A stretch of DNA of 64,000 nucleotides, taken from assembly GCF_014119005.1 (NCBI RefSeq), contig NZ_JACGYX010000001.1, positions 372,001-436,000 of the forward strand, in the 5' to 3' direction. The stretch's first letter is position 1, and the number at the start of each line of letters is the position of its first letter. This document shows positions 1,490 to 21,159 of this stretch, piece after piece. The notes under the pieces are model-generated. The model ran no database searches and was not told where the DNA came from. It was given only the letters and a program-made list of their open reading frames with translations. The DNA is from Psychrobacter sp. GP33 (GTDB lineage: Bacteria; Pseudomonadota; Gammaproteobacteria; Pseudomonadales; Moraxellaceae). The position numbers and the translations under genes are program-made.

Positions 1490-1536
1490 AACTAAGTTTT
1501 AAATATGGCGCAGCGGACGGGACTCGAACCCGCGAC
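1490..1536. repeat. Left 47-bp direct repeat (att-like) of the island
   Basis: The 47 bases here are identical to 11597-11643. The repeat covers 16 bp of tRNA downstream flank, the CCA end, the acceptor 3' strand and the T arm of tRNA-Asp. Direct repeats that include the 3' end of a tRNA gene are the usual mark of integration by a tyrosine recombinase. Here no integrase gene survives, so unequal recombination between tandem tRNA-Asp copies is an alternative. Confidence 0.8.
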
Positions 1537-2396: not shown

Positions 2397-2464
2397 AAGT
2401 GCATAATCACATTTCTGTATGGTTCATGTAATATCATTACAATTTTTTATACAGTGTGAAATGA

Positions 2465-3368
2465 GTAATAGTAATTGAATTAAAAAAGCATGAACGTCTT
2501 GCATATCGCTTATCTGATATTATCGTTAGACTCAACAACGGTGAACGGTTAGATATTTTTGAGCTAGCAGATACCTATAAGGTATCTATTCGTACCCTAA
2601 AAAGAGACTTTCAAGATCGTCTAACTGTCTTAGATTTTAGTGAAGCAGGTCCACAGTTTTATTGTCTCAATGCTAAAAAAATTGGATATTACTGATATCA
2701 AACGCTTCGCTAACTTTGCCAGCGTCCAAGATCTCCTACCAAAAATTGACCGCCAATTTTTTCAAGAACAACTCAATCAAAGCATACTCGTTAAAGGTTT
2801 TGCTTATGAAGACATTAGCGCGCGTACTAATGACTTTAAAGCCATTAATCAGGCGATTAGCAAGTGCCAATATATTGAGTTCGATTATCGCAAAGTGAGT
2901 CATAATGCGACTGATAACAGTAGCAAACATCATCGTTTGCAGCCTTATCGTCTACTCAATAAAAATGGGGTTTGGTACGTGGTTGGGCAACGTGATGGAC
3001 GGACGCAGGCGTTTTGCTTTACGCAAATAACCCATCTACAAGTCAATACCGACACCTTTGTGTGCTGTGAGGATGTCAAAGCGCAAATATTAAGCACCGA
3101 TAGTCTGTACTTTAGCAATCATATCAGCGAAATCATATTGCAAGTGGATGTTAAGGTCGCAGGATACTTCGAGCGCCGTGACCTATTGCCTAATCAGGAG
3201 CTGATACGTCGTCTTGATAGTGGCGATTTGCTGCTAGTCTGCAAAAATGTACACCCAAGAGAGGTCATTCCTATTGTGCAGTACTGGATACCGCATATTC
3301 GGGTAATCAGCCCAAGTGCGGTTCAGGCGGAGATGAAGGATGGTTTGAGAGGGTATTTATCTATATAA
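2465..3368 (+). pseudogene. WYL-domain transcriptional regulator, frameshifted
   Basis: Two overlapping frames together encode one WYL protein. The first frame (to about 2681) carries the N-terminal helix-turn-helix: ERLAYRLSDIIVRLNNGERL, then ELADTYKVSIRTLKRDFQDR. It runs into TGA shortly after a tract of seven A at 2675-2681. Removing one A joins it to the second frame (KKLDITDIKRFANFASVQDL onward), which holds the WYL domain (IEFDYRKVSH, YRLLNKNGVWYVVGQRDGRT, QAFCFTQI) and a C-terminal WCX-like part up to 3368. A clean ATG in the first frame is also missing; ATG at 2461 is out of frame. WYL proteins of this type bind DNA and ligands, and BrxR and CapW are known regulators of phage-defence operons. 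This one ends about 100 bp upstream of the GTPase operon and may once have controlled it. A translated C-terminal fragment is possible but unlikely to bind DNA. Confidence 0.75.
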
Positions 3369-3471
3369 ATTTAATACATATAATTGATTTTTTTATTGTT
3401 TGTAGGCTTAAACGTATATTTATTCAATGAGTAAGAACAATTTTTTGAACTGCAAAATGGAGCGTAAAAAA

Positions 3472-5571
3472 ATGAATGCTGAATATTTAAAATTATTAGA
3501 AAGCAACTTAAGACAGGTAATGAACATTGCTTGTGATCTTGATAGCTGTAGTAAAGAGACTTTGAAAAAAATTGTTGAAACTTATCGAAAAATTCGCTTG
3601 AGTCGTCTGTTAGCTAACGAATACTTCGTAGCCATTGGAGGTACACAAGGAGCAGGAAAAACCACTTTGCTAAGCACCATCTACAATGCTGAGGATTGGC
3701 TTACTTCTAATAGTGGTCGGGGGGAGCAAGTTCCTGTGTTTGTATATGAAAAGCAAGGCATTACAGAAATAATGGCTAGTAAGATTGTTTTTAACACAAA
3801 AACAAAAAAAGAATCTGAGATTCAGTGTGCCAAAGAAGAGTTTAAAAAGATTATCACTCAATGGGAATGCGATGGTAAAGATGATGAACGTGTCGTTTAC
3901 GTCAAATTATTTGTACCTGTAGTATTCGACATTCCCTTTGGTTGGGTATTATTACCAGGGTATGAGGTAGAAACTCATAAAAACTATGCTTGGCAGCAGC
4001 TTATGCGCTATGTCATGACTCATGCTTTAGGCGTTATCCTTGTGACTAGTGAAGAAAGACTGGCACATGTGCAAACTGATATTACTGATGACTTAGCAGA
4101 AAGCTTACAATCGCGTCAGCCAGTTATTGCTATCTCTCGTTCAGAAAACTATCGTGATAATGAAGAAAAAATAAGCCAACTCACTAAACGAGCAAAAGAA
4201 GTCTTCAAGGTTTCAGAGGATAAAGTTATTTTTACAGGAACAGATCTGAATAATTGGAAAGATAATTTTGAAAAAGCTGTAATACCTCTATTAGATAAAA
4301 ACTCTGCTGTAGAGAATAATAAAATCCATACTTTGCTAGAGGTCATTGATAATGATTTATCAGAAGTCATAAACGATCTTGAAGGACTAGCCCTAAATGC
4401 TGAGATTAGCGATAGTGCTCAAAATAGCTTAGTAGATAAGCTTATAAATAAGTTTGATAATTCTGCTAATAAGTACAAACAAGATTTATCAAAAGAGCTT
4501 AGTAGAAAGACTGCTACCTTGGTAGCAGACGCTATCCAGCAGGCTCAAAAAGAATACGGTGATGAAGAAGTAGGCCTAATAAATAATGTAAAACTAGGCT
4601 TGAAGCATATTACATTTAACGGCTCAAAGATTGATGATAAACGCAAAGAAAGAGTTAAAGGTAACTTTACCCCTACAGCCGTTATGACTTCAAACTTAAA
4701 TGCTATTAATGAAACCGCTCAAAATCAATTAAACTTAGAGTTAAGCAGTCATACATCTAATAACTTATTAGGTTATTCAGATACGAAAATGGACAATTAC
4801 GAAGACTCACCAGCAGACTATCATGAGTCAGTTAATGCGGGACTTAGAATATTATTAAGAAAAGAAGAGTTATCTGAAAGTGCTAGCAGCAAGAAAAATC
4901 ATAACGAAATAATTGAAAAAGCCATGGAGGTACTGCCTGCTGTAGCAATGGAGTACTCTCGCATTGTCCAAATTGCTTATTTACATTCAGATGGAGATAC
5001 CGTTGCTTTTAAAAATAAGCTCGAAAATAGCAACCTTGACACAACAGACCTACAAGGACTGATGGCAAATGTCGTTAGAGATACTGATACAACTTCTGAA
5101 GGTGTCAAGACAGTTATGGGTATAGTTGGGTCACTAACAGGCTTGGACATGATGGATGGTAAACTTGATGGGCAAATTGATTTTTCAGATAAACCATCGA
5201 ATAGCAATGATGGGTTACAAACAGCTGCATTACTAGCTACTAGAGTAGCAGGTTTAGCGGTTGCAGTTGGTGCTGTAGCATTTACTGCATACCAAATGTC
5301 TAACTCCGTTAATCTAACAGATAAATCAAACAAAACATTTATTGAGGCATATGCGCAAGATTTAGGACGTAAAAACAATGCGATGGTAATTAGTGAGTAT
5401 GATGAGCATATGCAAAAAATATCACAGTATTTACGTTCAAATTTAGAGCAAATGTATGGTATAGGTTCAACTGATACTCAACATCATCTTATGGTTGCAC
5501 TCAAATATTTAAAAAATGCTCATAAAGACGTACGGAGAGTATTGAACAATGAACAACTTAACATGGCCTGA
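3472..5571 (+). CDS. Dynamin-like GTPase with C-terminal hydrophobic segment (first gene of trio)
   Basis: A 699-residue protein if started at ATG 3472, which has GGAG nine bases upstream; in-frame ATGs at 3427 and 3457 are weaker. After a helical N-terminal part comes a G domain: P-loop GGTQGAGKTT (about 56-65), a switch-I-like GRGEQVPVFVYE (about 82-93) recalling the dynamin/GBP loop, a G3 position reading WVLLPGYE (about 158-165) that lacks the usual Asp of DxxG, and a G4-like ISRSENYRD. The long helical C-terminal half contains an Ala/Val-rich hydrophobic stretch (LATRVAGLAVAVGAVAFTAY, about 588-607), plausible as a membrane-inserting hairpin or paddle. The gene overlaps the next one by 23 bp, implying coupled translation. 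It is AT-rich and full length, with no lesion, unlike its island neighbours. Dynamin-like membrane remodelling is inferred from layout; the exact family is not recognised. Among defence systems, Eleos/LeoABC is the nearest idea I have, with a different architecture. Confidence 0.8.
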   Translation: MNAEYLKLLESNLRQVMNIACDLDSCSKETLKKIVETYRKIRLSRLLANEYFVAIGGTQGAGKTTLLSTIYNAEDWLTSNSGRGEQVPVFVYEKQGITEIMASKIVFNTKTKKESEIQCAKEEFKKIITQWECDGKDDERVVYVKLFVPVVFDIPFGWVLLPGYEVETHKNYAWQQLMRYVMTHALGVILVTSEERLAHVQTDITDDLAESLQSRQPVIAISRSENYRDNEEKISQLTKRAKEVFKVSEDKVIFTGTDLNNWKDNFEKAVIPLLDKNSAVENNKIHTLLEVIDNDLSEVINDLEGLALNAEISDSAQNSLVDKLINKFDNSANKYKQDLSKELSRKTATLVADAIQQAQKEYGDEEVGLINNVKLGLKHITFNGSKIDDKRKERVKGNFTPTAVMTSNLNAINETAQNQLNLELSSHTSNNLLGYSDTKMDNYEDSPADYHESVNAGLRILLRKEELSESASSKKNHNEIIEKAMEVLPAVAMEYSRIVQIAYLHSDGDTVAFKNKLENSNLDTTDLQGLMANVVRDTDTTSEGVKTVMGIVGSLTGLDMMDGKLDGQIDFSDKPSNSNDGLQTAALLATRVAGLAVAVGAVAFTAYQMSNSVNLTDKSNKTFIEAYAQDLGRKNNAMVISEYDEHMQKISQYLRSNLEQMYGIGSTDTQHHLMVALKYLKNAHKDVRRVLNNEQLNMA

Positions 5572-7462
5572 AGTTTATCAACATAGATTTGAGTGGGCTA
5601 AATCAGCTCATTCAAAGTTTATGCTAAAGTTTGACAACGACCTATATTCAACACGTGAAATCAAAGATCAAATATTTGTTGCCGTTTATGGCGCTTCACA
5701 AGTAGGCAAAACATCTTTAATCCTTGAGCTAATAGGCGTACTTCCAGAACACTATAGTACCGTTCAGAATGTTCTTAGAGCAGATAGAGACTATGGAAGA
5801 TCTGCTACATCAACTGTAGTTCGCTATCGTGCTTCTAGTGATAGCTATTGGCACATACATGATGTTGGCGAAAATAGCAACGATAGGATAAATCTAAATA
5901 ATAGCCAAGCCAAAAAAGTTTTAGCAAAAATTCGTTCTGATATGGAAGTTGTGGGAGGCCAATATAATGTCGAAGAAATTGATATCAGTATTCCTGAAGA
6001 ATATTTGAGTAAAAAAAGTAATCGATATAAAGATATTGTCATTCGCGATTTACCAGGAGTTAAAGCAGAAAACAATAATGAGCGCGAATTTGTTACTAAG
6101 GCGATTAAAGATAAGATTGAAAAAGCTGATTTGGTGCTATTAGTTACTACTATCGATAACATAGGTTTGGTAGTACAGCCTGAAAACTTAGAATTAGATG
6201 AGTTGCAAAAATGGAGAGTTAACCCACAAAGATTTAAGATTGTCTTTACTAGGTTTTATTCAGACGACTCAAGTCTAAGGCTCTGTAACCAGCTTCATGA
6301 GCAAGAAGGTTCTATAAATAAAGACGATATTCGTACTCATATTCAAAAGCAAATACATACTTTGGATAATGATTGGAAATGGGATGTCAAAAGCCAACTC
6401 TACGCATTAGAGGTAGGAGATAGTTGGTATAAGCTTGAAACAGGCCTCAGTGAAGAGACTCAGTCGCTAAAAAAGATTAGGAAAGATTTTTTTGATGAGC
6501 TAAACGATGTTATTTACTCTGCCAGCAATCCTATCATCAGACTTTGTCACGGATACCAAATTGGTAATATTTCTAAAAATTTTAAATCAGAAAAAAACCA
6601 AGAAGCTAATATTGATCTGTCTAGGATAGAAAAAGAGATCAAAGATATCGATAATGAAATAAAAGATAGTAATATTAATATCAATAAGCATCAAATATCT
6701 ATTAATGGCGAGAAAGAAGATTTAAATAACCACATAGTATATATCAGTAATTTTTACAATGACTGTAAAAATAAACTTTCGCATGTAAGACTCGAAAATT
6801 TAGAGAAAATCATAAAAGAGCCTAAACAAAAAAATACTAATATGCTAGATGACTATTTACGAAAGAATATTTCAAATATCCAGGATGAGTGGGAATTAAT
6901 AAAACGAGAAAGTATAGGTAGTATTAATTTGAGTGATTTTCCTCACTTAAGTGATATAGATGATATGCAAGCTCATCTAAACAACTATGCCTTTGAAACC
7001 TATTTCTTTCAAGACAATTATAATAGTGATTTAAATAAAATAAAATCTATTATAGATAAACAGTTAGCAGTTATAAACGATTCGCTAAAAAATTCTTATT
7101 TGAAGTATCTAGGATATATAGAATTAGAAAGCAAGAAAAAAATAAAAAAATCTGAAAATATTATTTCAAAGCTAAAAAATAGAGAAAGAGATTTAGTCAA
7201 AAAAAGATACCTTTTATACAAAGAAAAGTCGAACTTAGAAGAAAGCTTAATCAGGTTTAACTCTGACCGTGATTTAGAAATAGAAAATAGTAATAACTTC
7301 TCTGGGTTTGTCCAGAATGAATTTAAACTAGCCATATCTGATTTTTCAAATCTTGCTAAAGAAGAATCAGATAATATGAGAAAACTATATTGGATAATGT
7401 TAATTAGACAATTAAATATTGACTTTAAAGTTGTAGAGGGAAAAAATGAAGGAAAAAATTGA
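5549..7462 (+). CDS. GTPase with long coiled-coil domain (second gene of trio)
   Basis: A 637-residue protein. The G domain is at the N-terminus: P-loop VYGASQVGKTSL (about 46-57), a candidate G2 Thr in GRSATSTVVRY (about 83-93), a proper G3 motif IVIRDLPGVKAENN with the Asp of DLPG, and a G4-like IVFTRFYSDD. From about residue 355 to 570 the sequence is dominated by Lys, Glu, Asn and Ile in heptad-like spacing (for example EKEIKDIDNEIKDSN), indicating a long coiled coil. No membrane segment is evident, in contrast to both partners. The start lies inside the first gene (23-bp overlap) and the end overlaps the third gene by 17 bp, so the three products are probably made together in a fixed ratio. 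Strong A bias in codon use (AAA, AAT, ATA) sets it apart from core genes and suggests horizontal origin. The function is unknown; with its complete G motifs it may be the active GTPase of the trio. Confidence 0.8.
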   Translation: MNNLTWPEVYQHRFEWAKSAHSKFMLKFDNDLYSTREIKDQIFVAVYGASQVGKTSLILELIGVLPEHYSTVQNVLRADRDYGRSATSTVVRYRASSDSYWHIHDVGENSNDRINLNNSQAKKVLAKIRSDMEVVGGQYNVEEIDISIPEEYLSKKSNRYKDIVIRDLPGVKAENNNEREFVTKAIKDKIEKADLVLLVTTIDNIGLVVQPENLELDELQKWRVNPQRFKIVFTRFYSDDSSLRLCNQLHEQEGSINKDDIRTHIQKQIHTLDNDWKWDVKSQLYALEVGDSWYKLETGLSEETQSLKKIRKDFFDELNDVIYSASNPIIRLCHGYQIGNISKNFKSEKNQEANIDLSRIEKEIKDIDNEIKDSNININKHQISINGEKEDLNNHIVYISNFYNDCKNKLSHVRLENLEKIIKEPKQKNTNMLDDYLRKNISNIQDEWELIKRESIGSINLSDFPHLSDIDDMQAHLNNYAFETYFFQDNYNSDLNKIKSIIDKQLAVINDSLKNSYLKYLGYIELESKKKIKKSENIISKLKNRERDLVKKRYLLYKEKSNLEESLIRFNSDRDLEIENSNNFSGFVQNEFKLAISDFSNLAKEESDNMRKLYWIMLIRQLNIDFKVVEGKNEGKN

Positions 7463-8444
7463 TTACGAAGAGTCTTTTGATATATTAGTAGAAGATATAT
7501 TTGGCAAGATGATAGAAGAAAAAAACTCTAACCAAAAAGAGGAAATGCTTTACGACATCGAACTTCAAATAAACTATACTAAACAAGAGATCTCAAAAAA
7601 TAGTAGTAAATTAAGTGGGGAAATATGTAGACTTGAAGATTTTATCAAAAATGATATTGAGTTAGAAGATGTAGCAAAAAGGATAAAAAAAATTGATAAT
7701 AAGTCTCAGGACTTGTTAGAAGCTATCGACGAGTATAGTGTTAATACAAAAAATAATTTATCAGACTTAAAGTCATCATTAAAAGCCAGTAATAATGAAA
7801 ATACTAATAATATTGCTGAAACCCTAAAAAAATATAATCAAGAATTAATTAAGAGTGATGAACTATTAACTAGCTTACTAAAGTCTTCAGATCTGAGCCA
7901 TAAGAATTTAGCTGAAGAAACAATGCAGGCTATTTCCGATGTTAGCCAGTTACTAAACAATAATCTTAATACTTTATTGAGTAATATAGAGGATAACCGT
8001 CAGTTTACTGATGATACATATCAGAAATTTATAGAGGTTTTCCAGAGAGAGAAAGAAATATTACTAGAACACTCCTCTAATTTAGAAAAATTATTTTCTG
8101 AAAAAAATAGTCATAATTTTAGTAAGTTGTCAGAAGAAATTTCTATTATCAATAAATTGGTTTATAGTAAATACGACTCTTTACTACATCAAATAGATAA
8201 AAACAGTCAAATAATAGATGAAAAAACCACTTCAATTAACAAGACTATTGAAGCTAAATATGAACAACTAACCTTTAACCTAAAGTCTACCACGGATGAA
8301 GCACTTGTTAAGTCAAATAGTAATTATGACATTACACAGAATAAACTGGATAAAATATCCTTATCAAATAAAATTTTAATTACTTTAAACTGCCTTTGTT
8401 TAATAGCAGTTATAGTCGTTATCTTTTTAATGTATAGTTCTTAA
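7446..8444 (+). CDS. Tail-anchored coiled-coil protein (third gene of trio)
   Basis: A 332-residue protein almost wholly made of predicted helix and coiled coil (repeated Lys/Glu/Asn/Leu heptads; many segments such as LEDVAKRIKKIDNKSQDLLE). It ends in one hydrophobic stretch of about 20 residues (LNCLCLIAVIVVIFLMY, about 313-329) that leaves only two residues behind it: a classic C-terminal tail anchor placing the coiled coil in the cytoplasm. GAGGG lies six bases before the ATG at 7446, inside the end of the second GTPase gene. No enzyme motif is visible. By layout it resembles a scaffold or tether that could recruit the GTPases to the inner membrane; this is inference. The composition is extremely AT-rich. 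No clear terminator follows directly; the next coding remnant starts at 8534. Confidence 0.75.
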   Translation: MKEKIDYEESFDILVEDIFGKMIEEKNSNQKEEMLYDIELQINYTKQEISKNSSKLSGEICRLEDFIKNDIELEDVAKRIKKIDNKSQDLLEAIDEYSVNTKNNLSDLKSSLKASNNENTNNIAETLKKYNQELIKSDELLTSLLKSSDLSHKNLAEETMQAISDVSQLLNNNLNTLLSNIEDNRQFTDDTYQKFIEVFQREKEILLEHSSNLEKLFSEKNSHNFSKLSEEISIINKLVYSKYDSLLHQIDKNSQIIDEKTTSINKTIEAKYEQLTFNLKSTTDEALVKSNSNYDITQNKLDKISLSNKILITLNCLCLIAVIVVIFLMYSS

Positions 8445-8533
8445 AACGTAACTTTTAACTAAATATATTTTAATCGCTGCTTAACTGCTCTGAGCATACT
8501 TTATGAAGGTCTATGTAGACTTGGAACCTAATT

Positions 8534-9207
8534 ATGAAAAATACTGATATTTATGACAGTAATCTTAATACTGTTTTGGATAAAGCATCTAACGAAGATC
8601 TCGATCCATTAGTTGAATATCTCAGTAAGAAATTTTCTTGTGATCTAGTAGTAGATAAAGTCTATAAAGAGAGTTCCCCTAATCATTCATGAATATGTTT
8701 CGAGGCTTCGAAGGGCCGTCATACCATGAAGTTGTATGTGACGTAGCGTCTAAATTGAAAGCAAGTTATGACAAAAATGACAGTATAGAAAATATTGAAA
8801 ACTCGATATTAGAAGTTATTCTGACTAAAGCTTTAGAAAAGATGACAAATGAAGAAAAGCAACTACTACTAAAGGAGATGGGAGGGAAGTCTAATATTAA
8901 TATAGCACTTCTCTCTACGAAAAGTTTTCTTACTTTATTTAGAACTGGGGGTTTTGCTTCATATCAGATGACCCTGATTATTGCTAACCAAATGTCTAGA
9001 ATGTTACTAGGTAGAGGACTTATATTTGCAACTAATGCTGCTTTGATGAAGTCAGCATCATTACTTACGGGTCCTTTTGCATTGGCAGTAACTAGCGTAT
9101 GGATCGCTATAGATATGTCTGGACCTGCCTACAAGGTCACCATATCATGCGTCATACATGTTGCTATGCTCAGAAAGAAAGTTAATCGAAAACGATTTAA
9201 ATTTTAG
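8534..9207 (+). pseudogene. YaaW/DUF3944-family (UPF0174) gene, split into two frames
   Basis: Frame one (8534-8692, 52 residues, starting MKNTDIYDSNLNTVLDKASN) corresponds to the N-terminus of YaaW-like proteins. Frame two (8689-9207, 172 residues) carries the conserved remainder: the helical part NSILEVILTKALEKMTNEEK and the C-terminal Gly/Ala-rich block GPFALAVTSVWIAIDMSGPAYKVT-like, followed by IHVAMLRKK. Compared with E. coli YaaW, a piece between NHS and FEGPSYHEVV appears to be missing, so a deletion with frame change is likely. The two frames meet at ATGA (8689-8692), so coupled re-initiation could still give two half proteins. The family function is not established; an old annotation as a ubiquinol-cytochrome c chaperone is unreliable. 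It lies in the direction of the GTPase trio, 89 bp downstream. Confidence 0.7.
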
Positions 9208-9455
9208 TAATAAGAAAAGCAAAATATTTAACTTTTAATTGTTTACCACGGTATCTATCTAATAGTAGAGTTATTTTCAGAACGTCCAAATGACTAATGT
9301 TCTGGAGGGCTATTCCCGTCACTATTATTACTTTAGGTGAAGTACTTTTCAGTTCCTACAACTACACTACTGGTTCACACCATTAGACAAACTTATATTC
9401 AGGACTCATAACATGTTTTCAAAGAAATATTTACTACAAAATAAGTAAGCTAATC

Positions 9456-9492
9456 AAGCCGAGTTGTATAATCTTTATAATTTCGGTTTTTT
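9456..9492 (+). terminator. Possible Rho-independent terminator
   Basis: AAGCCGA (9456-9462) pairs with TCGGTTT (9483-9489), one G-T pair included, around an AU-rich loop, and six or seven T follow. It would end transcripts coming from the GTPase trio and YaaW remnant before the HEPN-type gene. Apart from this, 9208-9516 shows only an 11-codon open start (ATG 9413) that looks like a stray remnant. Confidence 0.4.
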
Positions 9493-9516
9493 TACATCGA
9501 AAAAGTATAAATCAAT

Positions 9517-10155
9517 ATGGAAAATATCTTAATTAATAGTTACTACCAAACTCAAAAATCTGAGTTTTCTGACCCATTTCGCTTGCGTATGCACCGGTCA
9601 TTAAGTTGGCTGTCTAAGGCAATGAGCGTCGATGATGACGACATACGTTTCATCACTCTATGGATTGCGTTCAATGCAGCTTATGCTCGTGAAGTGGTCT
9701 TGTTTACGACTAGTTCAGAGCGCAGTGAGTTTAGACGCTTTATACAGCTGATATGCCGTTTAGACATTGACCAGCAGGTCTATAAGCTAGTCTGGGAGAA
9801 ATATTCCGGTAGCATTCATATATTATTGGATAACTAATATACATTTCAGCCATTTTGGGATTATCAAAATGGTCTGATTAGTCAGCAAGCATGGGAAGAA
9901 GATTTTAAACGTGCAAAAGATAAAGCTCACCGTGCACTGAGTAATAAAGATACAGATACAGTATTTGATAGGTTATATACCCTACGTAATCAAATCATAC
10001 ATGGCAGTGCCACTCACAACAGCCAAGTCAATCGTTCACAAATTAAGGACAGTGGCGCTATCTTATCTGATATCTTGCCATTAATGTTAGGGATTATTAT
10101 GGTAAACCATAGCAAGATGGACTGGGGAAAGCCATTTTATCCGGTCGTAAACTAG
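9517..10155 (+). pseudogene. HEPN-type protein gene with premature stop
   Basis: The frame starts at ATG 9517 (MENILINSYYQTQKSEFSDP) and runs 106 codons to a TAA at 9835. It then continues in the same frame without further stops to TAG at 10153, giving a 212-residue product if the TAA is ignored. The second half holds YTLRNQIIHGSA, which fits the Rx4H motif (Arg-Asn-Gln-Ile-Ile-His) of HEPN RNases and HEPN-like proteins, and FWDYQNGLISQQAWEEDF before it. A single base change (for example AAA to TAA) would explain the break. HEPN proteins are common in toxin-antitoxin and defence modules. As it stands only the N-terminal half without the Rx4H motif would be made. Promoter and partner genes are not evident. 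Confidence 0.7.
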
Positions 10156-10425: not shown

Positions 10426-10978
10426 CTAAATTGTGTTGCGATCCATATCTAACAGTTCGGCGTAATCAGCTTGGCGCAAGTAGCTCCTGCTATTATCAAA
10501 CACCTTGTTCCAAATATTACTATTATAATCTTGAGTAATTTTTCTTAGTGCTGATTCTATAAAGCCAGGCCTTTTGAGTGAGATTAAAGACATAGATCTA
10601 ATAAAATCCATAAAAATAAAATATATCTTGATTGGAATCCTTCTCAATACGCTTTTTATGTTCAGGGTTAGTAGTATCTTTAGATGTCTTATAACTGAGA
10701 AAAAGCGTAGTACTTTCACTAAGCTCTCTAAGATTAAATAGAGGTGAAAAACAACCTCCAATCAACAGATATTTATTAGCACCTTTACTTATCAGTGATA
10801 CATTATGGATAGGTAGACTAGGGTAACAATCAAATCTATCGCTTATCAGCTTAAGATACTCTTCTTGCCCTCCTGCAACATATGCCTCGATCATCAACTC
10901 ATAGAGTTTTTTAGCCAATGGATGTAAGTCAATTTTAGTAATATTCTTAAATCTGATAGTTTTTGCGGATAAATTCAT
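10426..10978 (-). pseudogene. Unknown gene, frameshifted in a T5 tract
   Basis: The first frame starts at ATG 10976-10978 (MNLSAKTIRFKNITKIDLHP) and reads to about 10612, where it soon meets a stop. A second frame from there to 10426 continues with protein-like sequence (MDFIRSMSLISLKRPGFIES, then KITQDYNSNIWNKVFDNSRS). Removing one T from the T5 tract (plus strand A5, 10612-10616) joins them into a protein of about 183 residues. There is no signal peptide or membrane segment in the joined product, and I see no known motif. It is the only sizeable minus-strand gene in the island. Confidence 0.5.
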
Positions 10979-11596: not shown

Positions 11597-11643
11597 AACT
11601 AAGTTTTAAATATGGCGCAGCGGACGGGACTCGAACCCGCGAC
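11597..11643. repeat. Right 47-bp direct repeat (att-like) of the island
   Basis: Identical to 1490-1536. Here the repeat is part of the intact tRNA-Asp gene (from the T arm to the CCA end) and its 3' flank. The island between the two copies is about 10.1 kb. Confidence 0.8.
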
Positions 11644-11689
11644 CCCCGGCGTGACAGGCCGGTATTCTAACCAACTGAACTACCGCTGC
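11613..11689 (-). tRNA. tRNA-Asp (GTC)
   Basis: A 77-nt cloverleaf on the minus strand: acceptor GCAGCGG paired with CCGCTGC, D arm GTTCAGTTGGTTAGAAT, anticodon loop CTGTCAC with anticodon GTC, T loop GGTTCGAGTCC, encoded CCA. It is the second gene of a two-tRNA transcript behind tRNA-Val. Its 3' half is the target of the duplicated repeat that borders the island. Confidence 0.95.
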
Positions 11690-15509: not shown

Positions 15510-17090
15510 ATGCCTTCTTCTTCACCACCTTTTTCATCTACTTCTAAGGATGCTGCGCCTCTACAATTGCGCGCGCGCGCGATCAGTCCGCCGCCTTGGT
15601 ATTACCGGCTGATTATTGGTCTATTAAAACCCTTGTATCGTCTCCAAGTCTGGCGGCGCTCGCATCAGCGTGATAACTATCAACAAGAAGTGGCACAGCG
15701 TTTTGGCAAATCCTATCCGTCGCACCCTATTAGCAATAATGCTGCTGATAATAACGTCATTTGGTGCCATGCCGTCTCGTTGGGTGAGACAAATACTGTC
15801 GCCCCATTATTGGATCAATTATTACAGCAGGGCTATCAAATTTGGCTGACCAACACCACACAAACTGGATTTGCGCGTGGTGCTAGCCGCTTTGCCGATG
15901 CGATTGCTCACGGAAAAATGAGTCACAGCTATGTGCCAGTAGACAGTCCAGCCGTGATTAAAACGTTCTTAGCGCATGTGCAGCCCGTTGCGGTATTATT
16001 TGTTGAAACGGAACTGTGGGCAAATATTTTATATATTCTTGCGCAGCGAAAAATCCCCAGTATCTTAGTAAACGGACGGCTATCGGCAGCGTCTTTTAGC
16101 CGCTATCAAAAAATTAGCGCAGTCAGTCGCAGCATGATGCAAAATCTTACGCTGATTATTGCGCAAGACGACGATTCAGCGCAGCGTTTTTGTCAATTGG
16201 GCGCTGAGACTTTGCAAGTACAAGTTGCAGGCTCGCTAAAATGGGTTATTAATGCCCCTAAGATAAATCATGGTAATGAAAAGCCATTAACAAAAAATGA
16301 TAACGAGAATAGCGCCCTACAAAAAGATATCGCTATCAAGCCATCTTTAAGGGATAAAAAAACATCATCAAATTCAAAAGCGCTAGAGCGTTTAAACCGT
16401 CCGTTATGGGTGGCTGCGAGCACTCATAGCGGTGAAGAAGAAATAGCTTTGTCATGGCAGCAGCAGTTACTCATGGGAACAAGTGGTCAGAATCCTTTAT
16501 TAATTCTAGTGCCCAGACATCCAGAGCGCTTCGATGAGGTCGCAACTTTAATTCAACAGTCAGGATTGACGATGGCGCGTCGCAGTATGAATGAGGTAGT
16601 CACGAGCGACACGCAAGTCTATTTGGCGGACAGTATGGGTGAGCTGATGACATGGTTTGCGCTGGCGGATGTGGCGCTGGTCGGCGGCTCATTGGTCGAT
16701 ATTGGCGGACATAATCCGGTCGAACCTGCCAGCGTGGGAACGCCCATCTTAATGGGACGCTACACCCAGTCGTGTCAAACGGTCGTGGATAAACTGGCTG
16801 GTGTGGGGGCATTATATCAACCCTATAATGATTTTTATCGACCTATAGTCGTTGATTCACTAACTGCTGAGCAAGGTGAAGCTAAACCTTTTGTCCAAAT
16901 TGCAGCTACTGACGATAATGCTTTTATTTATGAGCAACTGCAGTTTTGGCTAAGTGAGCCGACCCTTGCCAAGCAAGCAGGGCAGTCGGGTGCAGAATTG
17001 GCAGAACAAGAGCAATCAGTACTTCCTCGTCAGTTGCAATTAATAGAAGCCGTGATTGCCCAATTTTCGGATAAGGAGCCTGTACTGTGA
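15510..17090 (+). CDS. waaA: 3-deoxy-D-manno-octulosonic acid (Kdo) transferase
   Basis: WaaA/KdtA (GT30 family) adds Kdo from CMP-Kdo to the lipid IVA precursor on the cytoplasmic face of the inner membrane. Family blocks are present: WCHAVSLGETNTVAPLLDQL near residue 85, ETELWANILY, NGRLSAASFSRY, and C-terminal DSMGELMTWFALADVALVGG and NPVEPASVGTPILMG. At 526 residues it is about 100 longer than the E. coli enzyme. The excess is a hydrophilic Asn/Lys-rich insert (about 250-295, SLRDKKTSSNSKALERLNRP at its end) and N- and C-terminal additions. A GC dinucleotide tract lies near the 5' end (15569-15581). The stop codon overlaps the rsmE start by 4 bp (GTGA), indicating coupled translation. Confidence 0.9.
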   Translation: MPSSSPPFSSTSKDAAPLQLRARAISPPPWYYRLIIGLLKPLYRLQVWRRSHQRDNYQQEVAQRFGKSYPSHPISNNAADNNVIWCHAVSLGETNTVAPLLDQLLQQGYQIWLTNTTQTGFARGASRFADAIAHGKMSHSYVPVDSPAVIKTFLAHVQPVAVLFVETELWANILYILAQRKIPSILVNGRLSAASFSRYQKISAVSRSMMQNLTLIIAQDDDSAQRFCQLGAETLQVQVAGSLKWVINAPKINHGNEKPLTKNDNENSALQKDIAIKPSLRDKKTSSNSKALERLNRPLWVAASTHSGEEEIALSWQQQLLMGTSGQNPLLILVPRHPERFDEVATLIQQSGLTMARRSMNEVVTSDTQVYLADSMGELMTWFALADVALVGGSLVDIGGHNPVEPASVGTPILMGRYTQSCQTVVDKLAGVGALYQPYNDFYRPIVVDSLTAEQGEAKPFVQIAATDDNAFIYEQLQFWLSEPTLAKQAGQSGAELAEQEQSVLPRQLQLIEAVIAQFSDKEPVL

Positions 17091-18141: not shown

Positions 18142-19284
18142 ATGTCGTTGAACGCGGTTGCAGCACCTCTATCTTTTACTAGCCCTATTAAAGCCACGTT
18201 ATCTGTGGCGGTATTTAGCTTAATGTTAGGACTGGTCGGTTGTAATAAAGCTGAAACGCCTGAGCAAGGCACCGAAACAGACGCAACAGCCGACACCACG
18301 GCTGCGGTGGGTGAAGCAGCGCCTGATAGCAAAGCAACGACAGGTAGCGATCAAGTCGTTACCATTTATTCTTCGCGTAATGAGCAATTGATTAAGCCAT
18401 TATTGGATAAATATACGGAAGAGACGGGCGTAAAAATTGAGCTAGTAACGGACAAAACCGGTCCACTGATGGCGCGTTTAGAAGCAGAAGGTAAAAATAC
18501 GCCTGCAGATATGCTTTTGACCGTTGATGCCGGTAACTTATGGCAAGCAGCAGAGCAAGGATTGTTGCAGCCAGTGGCTTCTACTGTGTTAGATACCAAC
18601 GTACCGGCTAAATATCGTGACCCGAAAGGCATGTGGACAGGACTGTCATTGCGTGCACGTACTATTTTTTATGACCCAAGCAAAGTCGACGCCGCGCAGT
18701 TGTCTACCTATGCCGATTTAGCCGATCCAAAATGGAAGGGTAAGCTATGCTTGCGTTCATCAAAAGCGGTCTATAACCAGTCATTGGTTGCCAGTATGAT
18801 GGAAAACTTGGGCGTAGAAAAAACTGAGCAAGTGGTTCGTGGTTGGGTGGCAAATTTAGCGACTGATACCTTTAGCGATGACACCAGCATGTTAGAAGCC
18901 ATTGCTGCTGGTCAGTGTGAAGTTGGTATTGCCAATAGCTATTACTATGGTCGCCTGCTTGATGAAAAGCCTGGTTTTCCAGTAAAAATATTCTGGGCGA
19001 ATCAAGACACCACTGGTACGCACGTGAATATCTCAGGCGCTGGCGTTATTGCTAACTCTGATAACCCAGATGGCGCACTTAAATTAATGGAATGGTTATC
19101 TTCTGATGAAGCGCAAGGTATCTATGCCAGCTCTGATAAAGAGTATCCAGTGAAAGAAGGTATTGATGAGTCAGAGATGCTTAGATCTTGGGGTCCATTC
19201 AAACAAGATAGTATCAGCGTCCAAAAATTCGGTGCTTTACAAACTCAAGCTATTCAGATGATGGATAAAGCGGGTTATAAATAA
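18142..19284 (+). CDS. fbpA: Ferric iron ABC transporter, substrate-binding lipoprotein
   Basis: A 380-residue periplasmic Fe(3+)-binding protein of the FbpA/FutA type. The start at ATG 18142 has GGAG eight bases upstream; a GTG 21 bases earlier is less likely. The signal sequence ends in a lipobox (LGLVGCN, Cys about 34), so the protein is probably a lipoprotein. A Thr/Ala/Glu-rich linker precedes the binding domain, which begins VVTIYSSRNEQLIKPLLDKY and contains GLSLRARTIFYDPSKV and NSYYYGRLLDE. The paired Tyr residues in NSYYYG correspond to the iron-ligand tyrosines of the family. The permease and ATPase genes follow in the same direction. A Fur-like site lies upstream. Confidence 0.88.
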   Translation: MSLNAVAAPLSFTSPIKATLSVAVFSLMLGLVGCNKAETPEQGTETDATADTTAAVGEAAPDSKATTGSDQVVTIYSSRNEQLIKPLLDKYTEETGVKIELVTDKTGPLMARLEAEGKNTPADMLLTVDAGNLWQAAEQGLLQPVASTVLDTNVPAKYRDPKGMWTGLSLRARTIFYDPSKVDAAQLSTYADLADPKWKGKLCLRSSKAVYNQSLVASMMENLGVEKTEQVVRGWVANLATDTFSDDTSMLEAIAAGQCEVGIANSYYYGRLLDEKPGFPVKIFWANQDTTGTHVNISGAGVIANSDNPDGALKLMEWLSSDEAQGIYASSDKEYPVKEGIDESEMLRSWGPFKQDSISVQKFGALQTQAIQMMDKAGYK

Positions 19285-19309
19285 GTAATTAGTCGATTGA
19301 CCAGTTAAT

Positions 19310-19345
19310 AAGCGTCTATCCATCCTACGTGGTTGATAGACGCTT
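19310..19345 (+). terminator. Hairpin between fbpA and fbpB (attenuator or transcript stabiliser)
   Basis: A perfect 10-bp stem AAGCGTCTAT / ATAGACGCTT with a 16-base loop starts 25 bp after fbpA. Only a weak T content follows (CTGCACTTACTTTT), so it is either a leaky terminator or a 3'-end stabilising structure that raises fbpA over fbpB. Confidence 0.55.
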
Positions 19346-19386
19346 CTGCACTTACTTTTAACGTACGTTATAACCTTTAACTCTAT

Positions 19387-19400
19387 TTGATAACTATCAA
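19387..19400. promoter_or_regulatory. Short palindrome upstream of fbpB
   Basis: TTGATA-AC-TATCAA is a perfect 6-bp inverted repeat about 95 bp before the permease gene. It shares GATAA/TATC elements with Fur half-sites and may be a second regulator site for the permease and ATPase genes. Confidence 0.35.
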
Positions 19401-19494
19401 TTGACCTAATAAATATACTCTCATACGCAAATACAATATAATACGGTTTTTTTTGCGCCTGATACGGTAAGAATTTTATGATGACACTAATTCA

Positions 19495-21159
19495 ATGATA
19501 ACAATGCCAAAAGTGTTTGTTCGTCGAGGCAATCGAGTTGAACAAGACCGTGTTGCTCCTCAAGACCATACGGTTGCCAAACGTATTTTCTCAAAATCAG
19601 TCTTAGGGCTGATTTCGTTGTTTATGCTGGTACCAATTGTTATCGTGCTGTTGTCATGGACGCAGCCAGTAGCCGATATTTGGACGCATATGCGCGAGTA
19701 TATCTTGCCGCAAGTGCTCAAAAATACAGCTATTTTATTATTAATGGTTACGGTTATTTCTGGAGTCATAGGTACAGCGCTGGCATGGGTAACGAGTATG
19801 TATCGTTTCCCCGGTCAGCGCTTTTTTGCGTGGGCATTAATGTTGCCATTAGCAATTCCAGCATATGTGATGGCATTTGTGACGGTGGGAATCGTTGATT
19901 TTAGTGGACCATTACAGACTGGATTACGTGATTTTGGTATCACGACGGCTATTCCTTCGGTTCGTAACGTTTGGGGTGCTGGCATTGTGCTATCGCTAGC
20001 ATTTTATCCTTATGTATATTTGCTTGCGCGTCAGGCTTTTTTATCTCAAGGTCGACGGGCAATTGAAGCGGGTCAAATGTTGGGCTTAAGTCGCAGTCGG
20101 GTATTTTTTCGCTTGGCACTACCGCAAGCGTTGCCTTGGGTTATTGGTGGTTTATTACTGGCGGCGATGGAAACGCTGGCGGATTTTGGTGCGGTGTCAG
20201 TATTTAACGTTGATACCTTTACCACGGCTATTTATAAAGCATGGTTTGGCTTTTTTAGTTTGACTACGGCGGCTCAGTTGGCGGCTCTACTGATAGGTGT
20301 GGTATTTATTGTCGTATTGTTTGAACAATATTGGCAAGCTAAGCGCGGCAATGGCATTACCCAAGGGAATAATCGCCGTTTTGAAACCAGTAAACCTGCT
20401 AAGCTTGGGATGACGCTACTATGCACAGTGATATTCTTACTAGCATTTTTAGTGCCATTTTTACAACTTATTTATTGGACAGCAGTAAATTTTCGTCAAG
20501 ATTTTGATGCGCGTTATATTGATTTTGTCATTAACAGTCTTTTGCTGGCGAGTATGACCACGCTATTTATTGCCGTGCTTGCGATTGTTATTGCGTGGGT
20601 AAAACGTCAATATCCAGATAAATCGACCAAATTAATGACCACGTTAGCCAATTTAGGTTATGTGGTTCCAGGTACGGTATTGGCAGTTGGCGTATTTATC
20701 CCGATTGCGTGGCTAGACAATCAGTTTATTGCCTTTGGATTAACCTCACATCAAGTGTTGTCCGGTAGTGTGGTAGTGATGCTGTTGGCATTATCAACGC
20801 GTTTTATGACCGTAAGTTTTCAGCCTGTTGACCGTCAATTACAGCGTTTGACTGCTAATCAAGAAGCGGCTGCAAAATTGCTTAGCGATAGCCCTTTTCA
20901 GCGATGGCGTCAAGTTGTGCTACCGGTGCTCAGCCCAGGCGTATTAACGGCCTTATTAATGGGATTTGTTGAAGTCATGAAAGAGATGCCTATTACTTTA
21001 ATGACGCGTCGACAAGGCTGGGATACGCTGGCAGTACGAGTGTTTGAGATGACCAGCGAAGGCATGTGGGCGCGGGCAGCCTTGCCAAGCTTACTTATTG
21101 TGCTGGTCGGTCTGCTTCCAGTTTGGATATTGCTGCGTCAAAGTGATAAAAATGGTTAG
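19495..21159 (+). CDS. fbpB: Ferric iron ABC transporter, fused permease
   Basis: A 554-residue inner-membrane permease with about 12 membrane segments, made of two tandem binding-protein-dependent transport domains as in FbpB/SfuB. Each half carries an EAA-type loop: GRRAIEAGQMLGLSRSRVFF with ALPQALPW in the first half, and NQEAAAKLLSDSPFQRWRQV with LPVLSPG in the second. These loops dock onto the ATPase. The start at ATG 19495 is followed by a second ATG nine bases later. It lies 210 bp behind fbpA with a hairpin and a palindrome in between, and 166 bp before the ATPase gene. Function: passage of Fe(3+) delivered by FbpA. Confidence 0.9.
   Translation: MITMPKVFVRRGNRVEQDRVAPQDHTVAKRIFSKSVLGLISLFMLVPIVIVLLSWTQPVADIWTHMREYILPQVLKNTAILLLMVTVISGVIGTALAWVTSMYRFPGQRFFAWALMLPLAIPAYVMAFVTVGIVDFSGPLQTGLRDFGITTAIPSVRNVWGAGIVLSLAFYPYVYLLARQAFLSQGRRAIEAGQMLGLSRSRVFFRLALPQALPWVIGGLLLAAMETLADFGAVSVFNVDTFTTAIYKAWFGFFSLTTAAQLAALLIGVVFIVVLFEQYWQAKRGNGITQGNNRRFETSKPAKLGMTLLCTVIFLLAFLVPFLQLIYWTAVNFRQDFDARYIDFVINSLLLASMTTLFIAVLAIVIAWVKRQYPDKSTKLMTTLANLGYVVPGTVLAVGVFIPIAWLDNQFIAFGLTSHQVLSGSVVVMLLALSTRFMTVSFQPVDRQLQRLTANQEAAAKLLSDSPFQRWRQVVLPVLSPGVLTALLMGFVEVMKEMPITLMTRRQGWDTLAVRVFEMTSEGMWARAALPSLLIVLVGLLPVWILLRQSDKNG

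Follow-up and report, generated by a model that had tools for sequence, protein, structure and literature searches.

A mobile three-gene module of two dynamin-like proteins and an anchored coiled coil, and its possible role in phage defence

What are three overlapping genes for dynamin-like proteins (DLPs) and a membrane-anchored coiled coil doing, unbroken, in a genomic island whose other genes are falling into disrepair? The question is raised by Psychrobacter sp. GP33, in a stretch of 64,000 nucleotides of contig NZ_JACGYX010000001.1 (hereafter the window, within which all unassigned positions are given), where genes 1, 2 and 3 (together the trio; Table 1) lie inside a small island. A first-pass annotation, made from the letters of the window, had proposed a membrane-acting defence or stress module with an architecture that it did not recognise. 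Here we use computation to establish the identity of the genes, their predicted folds, the asymmetry of their motifs, their hydrophobic segments, the conservation of their order, their mobility and their defence neighbourhood. On balance, and by a modest measure, we favour the view that the trio is a mobile module of three parts that remodels membranes in the manner of dynamins and thereby defends against phage.

The genes themselves are in good order. All three reading frames are uninterrupted, with an overlap of 23 bp between genes 1 and 2 and of 17 bp between genes 2 and 3, just as the first-pass annotation had it. The conserved start of gene 1 is probably the second methionine of the open frame, at position 3472, which is where the gene starts in three Psychrobacter relatives. 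Psychrobacter cibarius DSM 16327 and an uncultured Psychrobacter (genome G042) are among the relatives in which these genes are also found. Both GTPase genes look selectively maintained, as judged from ratios of nonsynonymous to synonymous substitution rates (dN/dS, against P. cibarius and a second Psychrobacter, respectively) of 0.14 and 0.15 for gene 1 and of 0.14 and 0.28 for gene 2. For gene 3, the ratios are 0.45, a value based on very few changes (dS 0.011), and 0.36.

Is this arrangement peculiar to Psychrobacter? A pattern scan of genome contigs found 24 loci with trio-type genes, 22 of which hold all three genes in order, and because the order recurs in other genomes, distantly related bacteria among them, it is not due to chance. 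All three genes were recognized by profile in 19 loci, and in three more (L035, L037 and L041) gene 3 was recognized by eye as a coiled coil with a C-terminal hydrophobic tail. Several copies are imperfect; for example, gene 1 of L035 is split over two frames, a masked stretch crosses gene 3 of L033, the contig of L028 ends within gene 1, and a 6.7-kb contig (L042) holds only a gene-1-like start without gene 2, making it either a counter-example or a remnant. Relatives of gene 1 are present in 11 plasmid records, and the three-gene order was seen in the Klebsiella, Pseudomonas luteola and Enterobacter plasmids that were opened; the Gluconobacter plasmid copy is interrupted by an insertion sequence (IS) and frame-broken. 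In Escherichia coli, at least 80% of the Klebsiella trio DNA is found in 5 of 5,426 genomes and some of it in 18. The trio lies beyond ydeT in two E. coli loci (L044 and L045); in the same place a third (L047) has only a trio remnant (8001-8359), with an ABC-three-component system 4.5 kb on, and in a fourth (L048) a cut gene 1 (8001-9635) lies shortly upstream of the same kind of system. The Klebsiella plasmid protein shares 89-97% identity with its counterparts in Erwinia, Rouxiella, Klebsiella, Serratia and Citrobacter, in keeping with recent transfer. Within Psychrobacter, the trio occurs in 4 of 60 genomes. As a side observation, a Sphingomonas plasmid (L011, 8000-11752) carries a 1250-residue open reading frame (ORF) with a helicase-like N-terminal part and a gene-2 remnant that has no P-loop, perhaps a deletion fusion of two defence-type genes; it was set aside as a trio member.

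What kind of proteins do genes 1 and 2 encode? Sequence searches of the Protein Data Bank (PDB) with the two proteins gave no match at E values up to 1. For gene 2, the Pfam family Dynamin_N matches directly (33.6 bits against a cut-off of 27), and for gene 1 the dynamin assignment is made from the predicted fold only, with moderate confidence. AlphaFold models of the individual proteins, built from alignments of 21 (gene 1) and 22 (gene 2) members, have dynamin-like proteins as their best matches. By Foldseek, the gene 1 model matches BDLP (1.6e-10), IniA (4.2e-10) and the Campylobacter DLP1/2 pair (2.2e-8), with mitofusin and OPA1 also among its best matches; the gene 2 model (mean predicted local distance difference test score, pLDDT, 78.9) matches the same three at 6.8e-8, 2.4e-7 and 8.1e-7. 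Similarly, mitofusin 1 heads the VIA-align results for both models (Z 21.0 over 327 residues with a root-mean-square deviation of 8.8 for gene 1, and Z 15.3 over 318 residues with 9.2 for gene 2). A dynamin-like fold, that is, a G domain with a helical neck or trunk, is thus well supported by the models of both large proteins. The stalk of gene 1 is less conserved than its own G domain in 8 of 8 compared pairs, and the helical parts of gene 2 are clearly less conserved than theirs in 6 of 8.

The nucleotide-binding sites of the two proteins differ. Motifs and hydrophobicity were counted over aligned members (n=21 for gene 1, n=22 for gene 2 and n=20 for gene 3). Gene 1 keeps the P-loop, GGxQGAGKTTL, and has G[RQ]GE..P at switch I, LLPGYE in place of DxxG and [ST][KR][TS]E in place of G4, in all 21 members. 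Dynamins, by comparison, carry a switch-I threonine. Since G2, G3 and G4 are degenerate throughout the alignment, GTP hydrolysis by the gene 1 product is doubtful. Gene 2, in turn, keeps G1 (QVGKT), a switch-I S[AS]T and G3 (DLPG) in 22/22, and a G4 of the NKxD type is found in none of the aligned members of either gene. The first-pass annotation had called gene 1 a dynamin-like GTPase with a hydrophobic C-terminal segment, of which the fold and the segment stand, with gene 1 looking like a degenerate GTPase, and it had credited gene 2 with complete G motifs, which is right for G1, the switch-I S-x-T and G3 and wrong for G4.

The asymmetry extends to the membrane. In 21/21 members, the hydrophobic segment of gene 1 lies at a distance of 83-106 residues from the C terminus, and gene 2 has no comparable one, with a highest 19-residue hydrophobic mean above 1.6 in only 1/22. 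As far as motifs and hydrophobicity tell, then, one partner has a predicted membrane segment without a standard switch, and the other a P-loop and DLPG without a membrane segment. The C-terminal anchor already proposed for gene 3 is found throughout its family, the most hydrophobic 19-residue window lying 2-14 residues from the C terminus in 20/20 members; its mean is at least 1.6 in 16 of them, and the four below that value are from Pseudomonas. The coiled coil of gene 3 was judged from its sequence and from profile matches of the coiled-coil type, among which those to ZorA and to tape-measure proteins look like coiled-coil noise. The predicted fold, together with the conserved hydrophobic and anchor segments, supports the original notion of a membrane-acting, dynamin-based system.

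How might three such proteins work together? We infer complex formation and a division of labour at the inner membrane, with a trigger and an outcome, along the following lines. Gene 1 would be the membrane-inserting partner, with a degenerate nucleotide site that may bind nucleotide and that would probably hydrolyse it poorly; gene 2 would be a soluble GTPase partner that supplies the hydrolytic site; and gene 3, a coiled coil whose tail would fix it in the inner membrane, would recruit or space the other two. An infection that disturbs the membrane (through DNA entry, phage-made vesicles or holin damage, for example) could serve as the trigger, upon which the three products may assemble into a hetero-oligomer and GTP hydrolysis by gene 2 may drive constriction, fusion or rupture at the disturbed site. 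As a result, the phage would fail or its spread would fall.

Why defence? The surroundings of the trio and its patchy, mobile distribution are best read as signs of a defensive role, and from this genomic context we consider such a role likely. At each of 16 loci, the nearest ORFs encoding 150 residues or more were collected, seven at most (109 proteins in all), and set against 112 ORFs drawn at random within a fixed 20-kb stretch of these 16 genomes. At an E value of 1e-15, the neighbours matched 212 PADLOC families and the controls 14 (one member each), where the figure of 212 is inflated by redundant models, a single type I specificity protein alone matching 97 at 1e-8, and the neighbour set is diluted by antisense ORFs that the greedy ORF caller took in some GC-rich loci. 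Eighteen of the 109 neighbours were also scanned singly; 12 match PADLOC at 1e-15 or better, and 6 have no match at 1e-8. Through these singly scanned proteins, 8 of the 16 loci hold a PADLOC match at 1e-15 or better, namely PDC-S15 and AbiH (L020), type I specificity (L025), WYL only (L026), REase_II and WYL (L029, which also has a McrBC-family gene), a generic helicase (L034), the DISARM-like DrmD (L036), viperin and WYL (L037) and type I restriction-modification (L038). Outside the 16-locus set, the neighbours include DruE- and GajB-like helicases beside the trio of Psychrobacter genome G038, HamA (Hachiman) and AbiTii in E. coli L044, an E1/JAB-type protein in Gluconobacter, PDC-S26 in Klebsiella and an IetA-like ATPase in P. 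luteola; in this extra scan, 2 of 10 proteins had no match. The trio, in other words, recurs beside known defence genes.

A number of observations weigh against our reading. The control ORFs come from ordinary chromosome, and so the comparison tests for an island more than for defence and points to islands with many defence genes, not to a specific bond between the trio and its neighbours; the 18 singly scanned proteins were, moreover, picked by eye. The trio is rare, with the 24 loci of the pattern scan coming from a collection of 84,980 species genomes, and PADLOC models touch gene 2 weakly and gene 1 not at all. Model confidence for gene 1 is moderate (mean pLDDT 66.6), with residues 572-633, which include the hydrophobic segment, below 50. 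Whole-chain TM-scores against solved dynamins are low, at about 0.2-0.3 by model length, because stalk angles differ or are poorly modelled, and Era and other plain G proteins score nearly as high as mitofusin for gene 1 (VIA-align Z 17.5 over 165 residues), such that the firm match is to the G domain plus helices. Additionally, not every neighbourhood is defensive; the Klebsiella plasmid trio lies near heat-resistance and tellurite-type genes, the P. luteola plasmid trio near conjugation genes, and one E. coli trio among sugar-use genes and IS.

These surroundings bring two alternatives into play. The stress half of the first-pass proposal survives as a membrane maintenance or envelope-stress module, like DynA or IniA, that seals or remodels a damaged inner membrane under antibiotics, cold or osmotic stress and protects against phage only as a by-product. 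It shares its fold class with BDLP and IniA and would suit the heat-resistance and tellurite-type genes of the Klebsiella plasmid, but we consider it unlikely, as the patchy spread (the 4/60 and 5/5,426 genomes mentioned above) and the repeated placement among restriction, viperin and Abi genes fit an accessory defence better. The second alternative, for which we see little probability, is a maintenance or transfer function of plasmids or integrative and conjugative elements, such as membrane handling in conjugation or the exclusion of incoming elements. The trio is carried on Klebsiella, Enterobacter, Pseudomonas and Gluconobacter plasmids, a few kb from tra genes and mobI in P. luteola; however, it is also found on E. 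coli chromosomes and on many chromosomal contigs.

A more specific question concerns JukA, a broken copy of which follows the trio in the window. Could the trio be the effector arm of Juk? On this proposal, JukA senses the early infection vesicle of a jumbo phage and recruits the trio, in place of JukB, to break or pinch it. JukA occurs in 6 of 100 Psychrobacter genomes, three of which carry the trio: the window, where it is broken, G042, where it is intact, and P. cibarius, where it is split over two contig ends. In the window and in G042, JukA starts 89 bp after gene 3, and no JukB-like gene was found beside it in their ORF lists, some ORFs of which were profile-scanned. The other three JukA genomes do have a JukB-like neighbour (PADLOC JukB in the two tested, by eye in the third), and the stretches fetched around their JukA genes contain no trio gene. 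These paired loci are L055 (7085-8733), L056 (7669-9404) and L057 (6703-8393), two of them between the same neighbours. Beyond Psychrobacter, an Edaphobacter metagenome-assembled genome (MAG) of the Acidobacteriota (L033) has a JukA relative (phmmer 7e-46) 1.4 kb downstream of its gene 3, and JukA is reported to work with diverse effectors and at times on its own (PMC13282480).

Most of the distribution, however, speaks against such a partnership. Of the 36 trio loci searched, the only ones with JukA nearby are two Psychrobacter loci (each represented twice) and that of the Acidobacteriota MAG, whose contig ends just after JukA, so that JukB may lie beyond. The fourth Psychrobacter trio genome, G038, has no JukA, and JukA matches in 6 of 18 other trio genomes are never in the trio flanks. 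The gene 2 tree needs two origins of the pairing, although the gene 1 tree is compatible with a single one. A JukA-dependent trio as a general rule was therefore rejected, given that most trio loci have no JukA in their flanks and G038 none at all, and a Juk effector arm is, in our estimate, distinctly improbable. We would put no higher the fuller scenario in which a pseudo-GTPase/GTPase dynamin pair with an anchored coiled coil, recruited by JukA in some lineages, pinches or breaks the early infection vesicle of jumbo phages. Were it true, the trio would be a bacterial counterpart of Mx or GBP, animal proteins directed against the compartments of viruses or pathogens.

Has the phage-defence module that we favour been described under another name? 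The first-pass annotation took the architecture to be uncharacterised, and in agreement with this, no PADLOC v2.0.0 system and no NCBIfam or Pfam family spans the whole trio. Neither gene 1 nor gene 3 could be placed convincingly in a family by scans of Pfam, NCBIfam, PHROGs and PADLOC; the best profile match of gene 1 is to a phage terminase-type family at 1e-4, and NCBI names for it such as 'sugar kinase' are unsupported by Pfam or NCBIfam scans. Among viral contigs, no relative was found with query P0001 alone, and query A4 found one locus whose genes 1 and 2, the only ones compared, are 97-99% like those of Erwinia; a partial match in a phage record (3e-12) covers 32% of gene 1. Among the best-ranked open-licence papers on dynamin-type defence (the top 20-30 for the broader queries), judged by titles and the beginnings of abstracts, no description of the trio was found. 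The words 'dynamin' and 'GTPase' are absent from the main text of DefensePredictor, as are the names ydeT and ydeP from the main text of a paper on E. coli hotspots (PMC10121019). As far as these papers and PADLOC v2.0.0 show, then, the trio has probably not been described before.

What of the island in which the window's copy sits? As had been claimed, it is decaying around an intact trio, with three genes broken relative to P. cibarius (Table 1). The WYL gene, open in P. cibarius as 306 residues, lacks 8 bp near 2684, which puts its helix-turn-helix and WYL parts in different frames; JukA, intact with 243 residues in the related Psychrobacter G042 (L014), lacks 55 bp near 8682; and the HEPN-like gene, relatives of which are open in G042 and G046, has an internal stop and a 12-bp gap. 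HEPN-like genes also recur shortly downstream of the trio in enterobacteria (15696-16694 in both L019 and L020, 13669-14667 in L012), the enterobacterial and Psychrobacter genes being two differing sorts with profile scores under the cut-off. On the minus strand of the window, 10426-10978 is a remnant of a 192-residue gene that is open in P. cibarius beside a further gene of 234 residues (L058, 149-1456). An exact 47-bp repeat of the tRNA-Asp 3' end frames the island (Table 1), and tRNA-Asp is its probable integration site; in all 4 relatives that were examined, tRNA-Asp and tRNA-Val stand next to one and the same downstream gene. The intact island of G042 opens with three ORFs of 183, 744 and 1064 residues (L014, 892-6858) and also has a viperin-like gene with a PADLOC match (18756-19664). 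It may be a multi-integrase defence island; for a gamma-mobile-trio reading of it, a phage-integrase domain is found in only one of the three upstream ORFs.

Table 1. Positions of the trio, its motifs and the other features of the island within the window
Feature	Position	Strand	Length	Remarks
Left direct repeat, att-like island end	1490..1536		47 bp	tRNA-Asp 3' end and sequence beyond; exact copy of 11597-11643
WYL-domain regulator, broken	2457..3368	+		WYL PF13280, E 5e-9
Gene 1, dynamin-like protein	3427..5571	+	714 aa	Paddle-like hydrophobic segment, degenerate switch motifs
Gene 1 P-loop	3637..3666	+		GGTQGAGKTT
Gene 1 LLPGYE, replacing DxxG	3949..3966	+		21/21 aligned members
Gene 1 hydrophobic (paddle-like) segment	5227..5283	+		95 residues from C terminus
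Gene 2, dynamin-like GTPase	5549..7462	+	637 aa	Long helical stalk, no membrane segment
Gene 2 P-loop	5690..5716	+		GASQVGKTS
Gene 2 G3 motif	6047..6058	+		DLPG, 22/22 aligned members
Gene 3, coiled-coil protein	7446..8444	+	332 aa	C-terminal membrane anchor
Gene 3 C-terminal hydrophobic anchor	8373..8429	+		
JukA (YaaW-like gene), broken	8534..9207	+		PADLOC JukA, E 3e-45, C-terminal part
HEPN-like gene, broken	9517..10155	+		HEPN_RiboL-PSP 0.0069, below its cut-off
Right direct repeat	11597..11643		47 bp	Inside and beyond tRNA-Asp; exact copy of 1490-1536
tRNA-Asp(gtc), probable integration site	11613..11689	-		

Why should such a module matter? Most bacterial DLPs occur in pairs (PMC6104087). 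Their roles are for the most part unclear. The trio is compact, mobile and ordered, and seems to split membrane insertion, the hydrolytic site and anchoring over three proteins; it is often near defence genes and is present in E. coli, which makes it testable there. If it protects, membrane remodelling by a dynamin pair would be an effector mechanism of mobile immunity, and the trio would offer a test of whether phage-made membrane compartments are targets of dynamins in bacteria.

How, finally, does the trio compare with known systems? The likeness to Juk is one of position, with JukA next to Psychrobacter copies of the trio and to the copy of one Acidobacteriota MAG. JukB, by contrast, was seen at none of these loci, JukA is missing from the flanks of most trio loci searched, and the JukA of the window is broken. 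With LeoABC, or Eleos, which is an anti-phage system, the trio shares its location on an island and dynamin-like proteins made from a single operon. The gene 2 protein of the window matches the LeoBC model at 1.4e-7 over residues 16-204 (the G domain) only, that of G042 matches LeoA at 5.7e-8 and LeoBC at 1.1e-5, and Foldseek weakly matches the gene 2 model to LeoA (4aur, E 5e-4). These contacts would also suit a LeoABC-like vesicle-secretion module that potentiates the release of periplasmic cargo, which we regard as highly improbable; gene 1 has no match to a Leo model at E values up to 1, LeoA is reported to be located in the periplasm (PMC4159319), and the leo arrangement, in which one DLP is split into an anchored, N-terminal LeoC and LeoB (PMC4159319), is absent from the window, where both DLPs are single, full-length genes. 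Nor is the third gene of the trio a GTPase. With gene 1 lacking a Leo match and gene 2 having only a weak one in its G domain, we rejected the trio as an established Eleos. DynA of Bacillus subtilis, a dynamin-like protein that remodels membranes and is reported to confer phage resistance (PMC8844932), is described as two DLPs fused in one protein (PMC6104087); the trio, in contrast, is carried by mobile islands and plasmids and keeps its two DLPs separate, next to an anchored coiled coil.

The closest relatives are the bacterial dynamin pairs (Cj-DLP1/DLP2, BDLP1/2, IniA/IniC and DynA/DynB). Most bacterial DLPs are reported to be operon pairs (PMC6104087, PMC4159319), and in the Campylobacter pair a hetero-tetramer is described as triggering GTPase activity and lipid binding (PMC6104087). 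Like them, the trio has adjacent DLP genes in one operon, BDLP, IniA and the Campylobacter pair are the best matches of its models, and one partner has a hydrophobic, tip-like segment for which membrane binding is predicted. Unlike them, gene 1 lacks standard switch residues (21/21), neither partner has NKxD, gene 2 lacks a membrane segment, and in 22 of 24 loci the pair is followed by a third gene, which encodes a tail-anchored coiled coil. Because the canonical G1-G4 motifs are not present in both partners, the pair is not a standard one, and by its motifs and gene content we class the trio as a variant of the bacterial dynamin pair.

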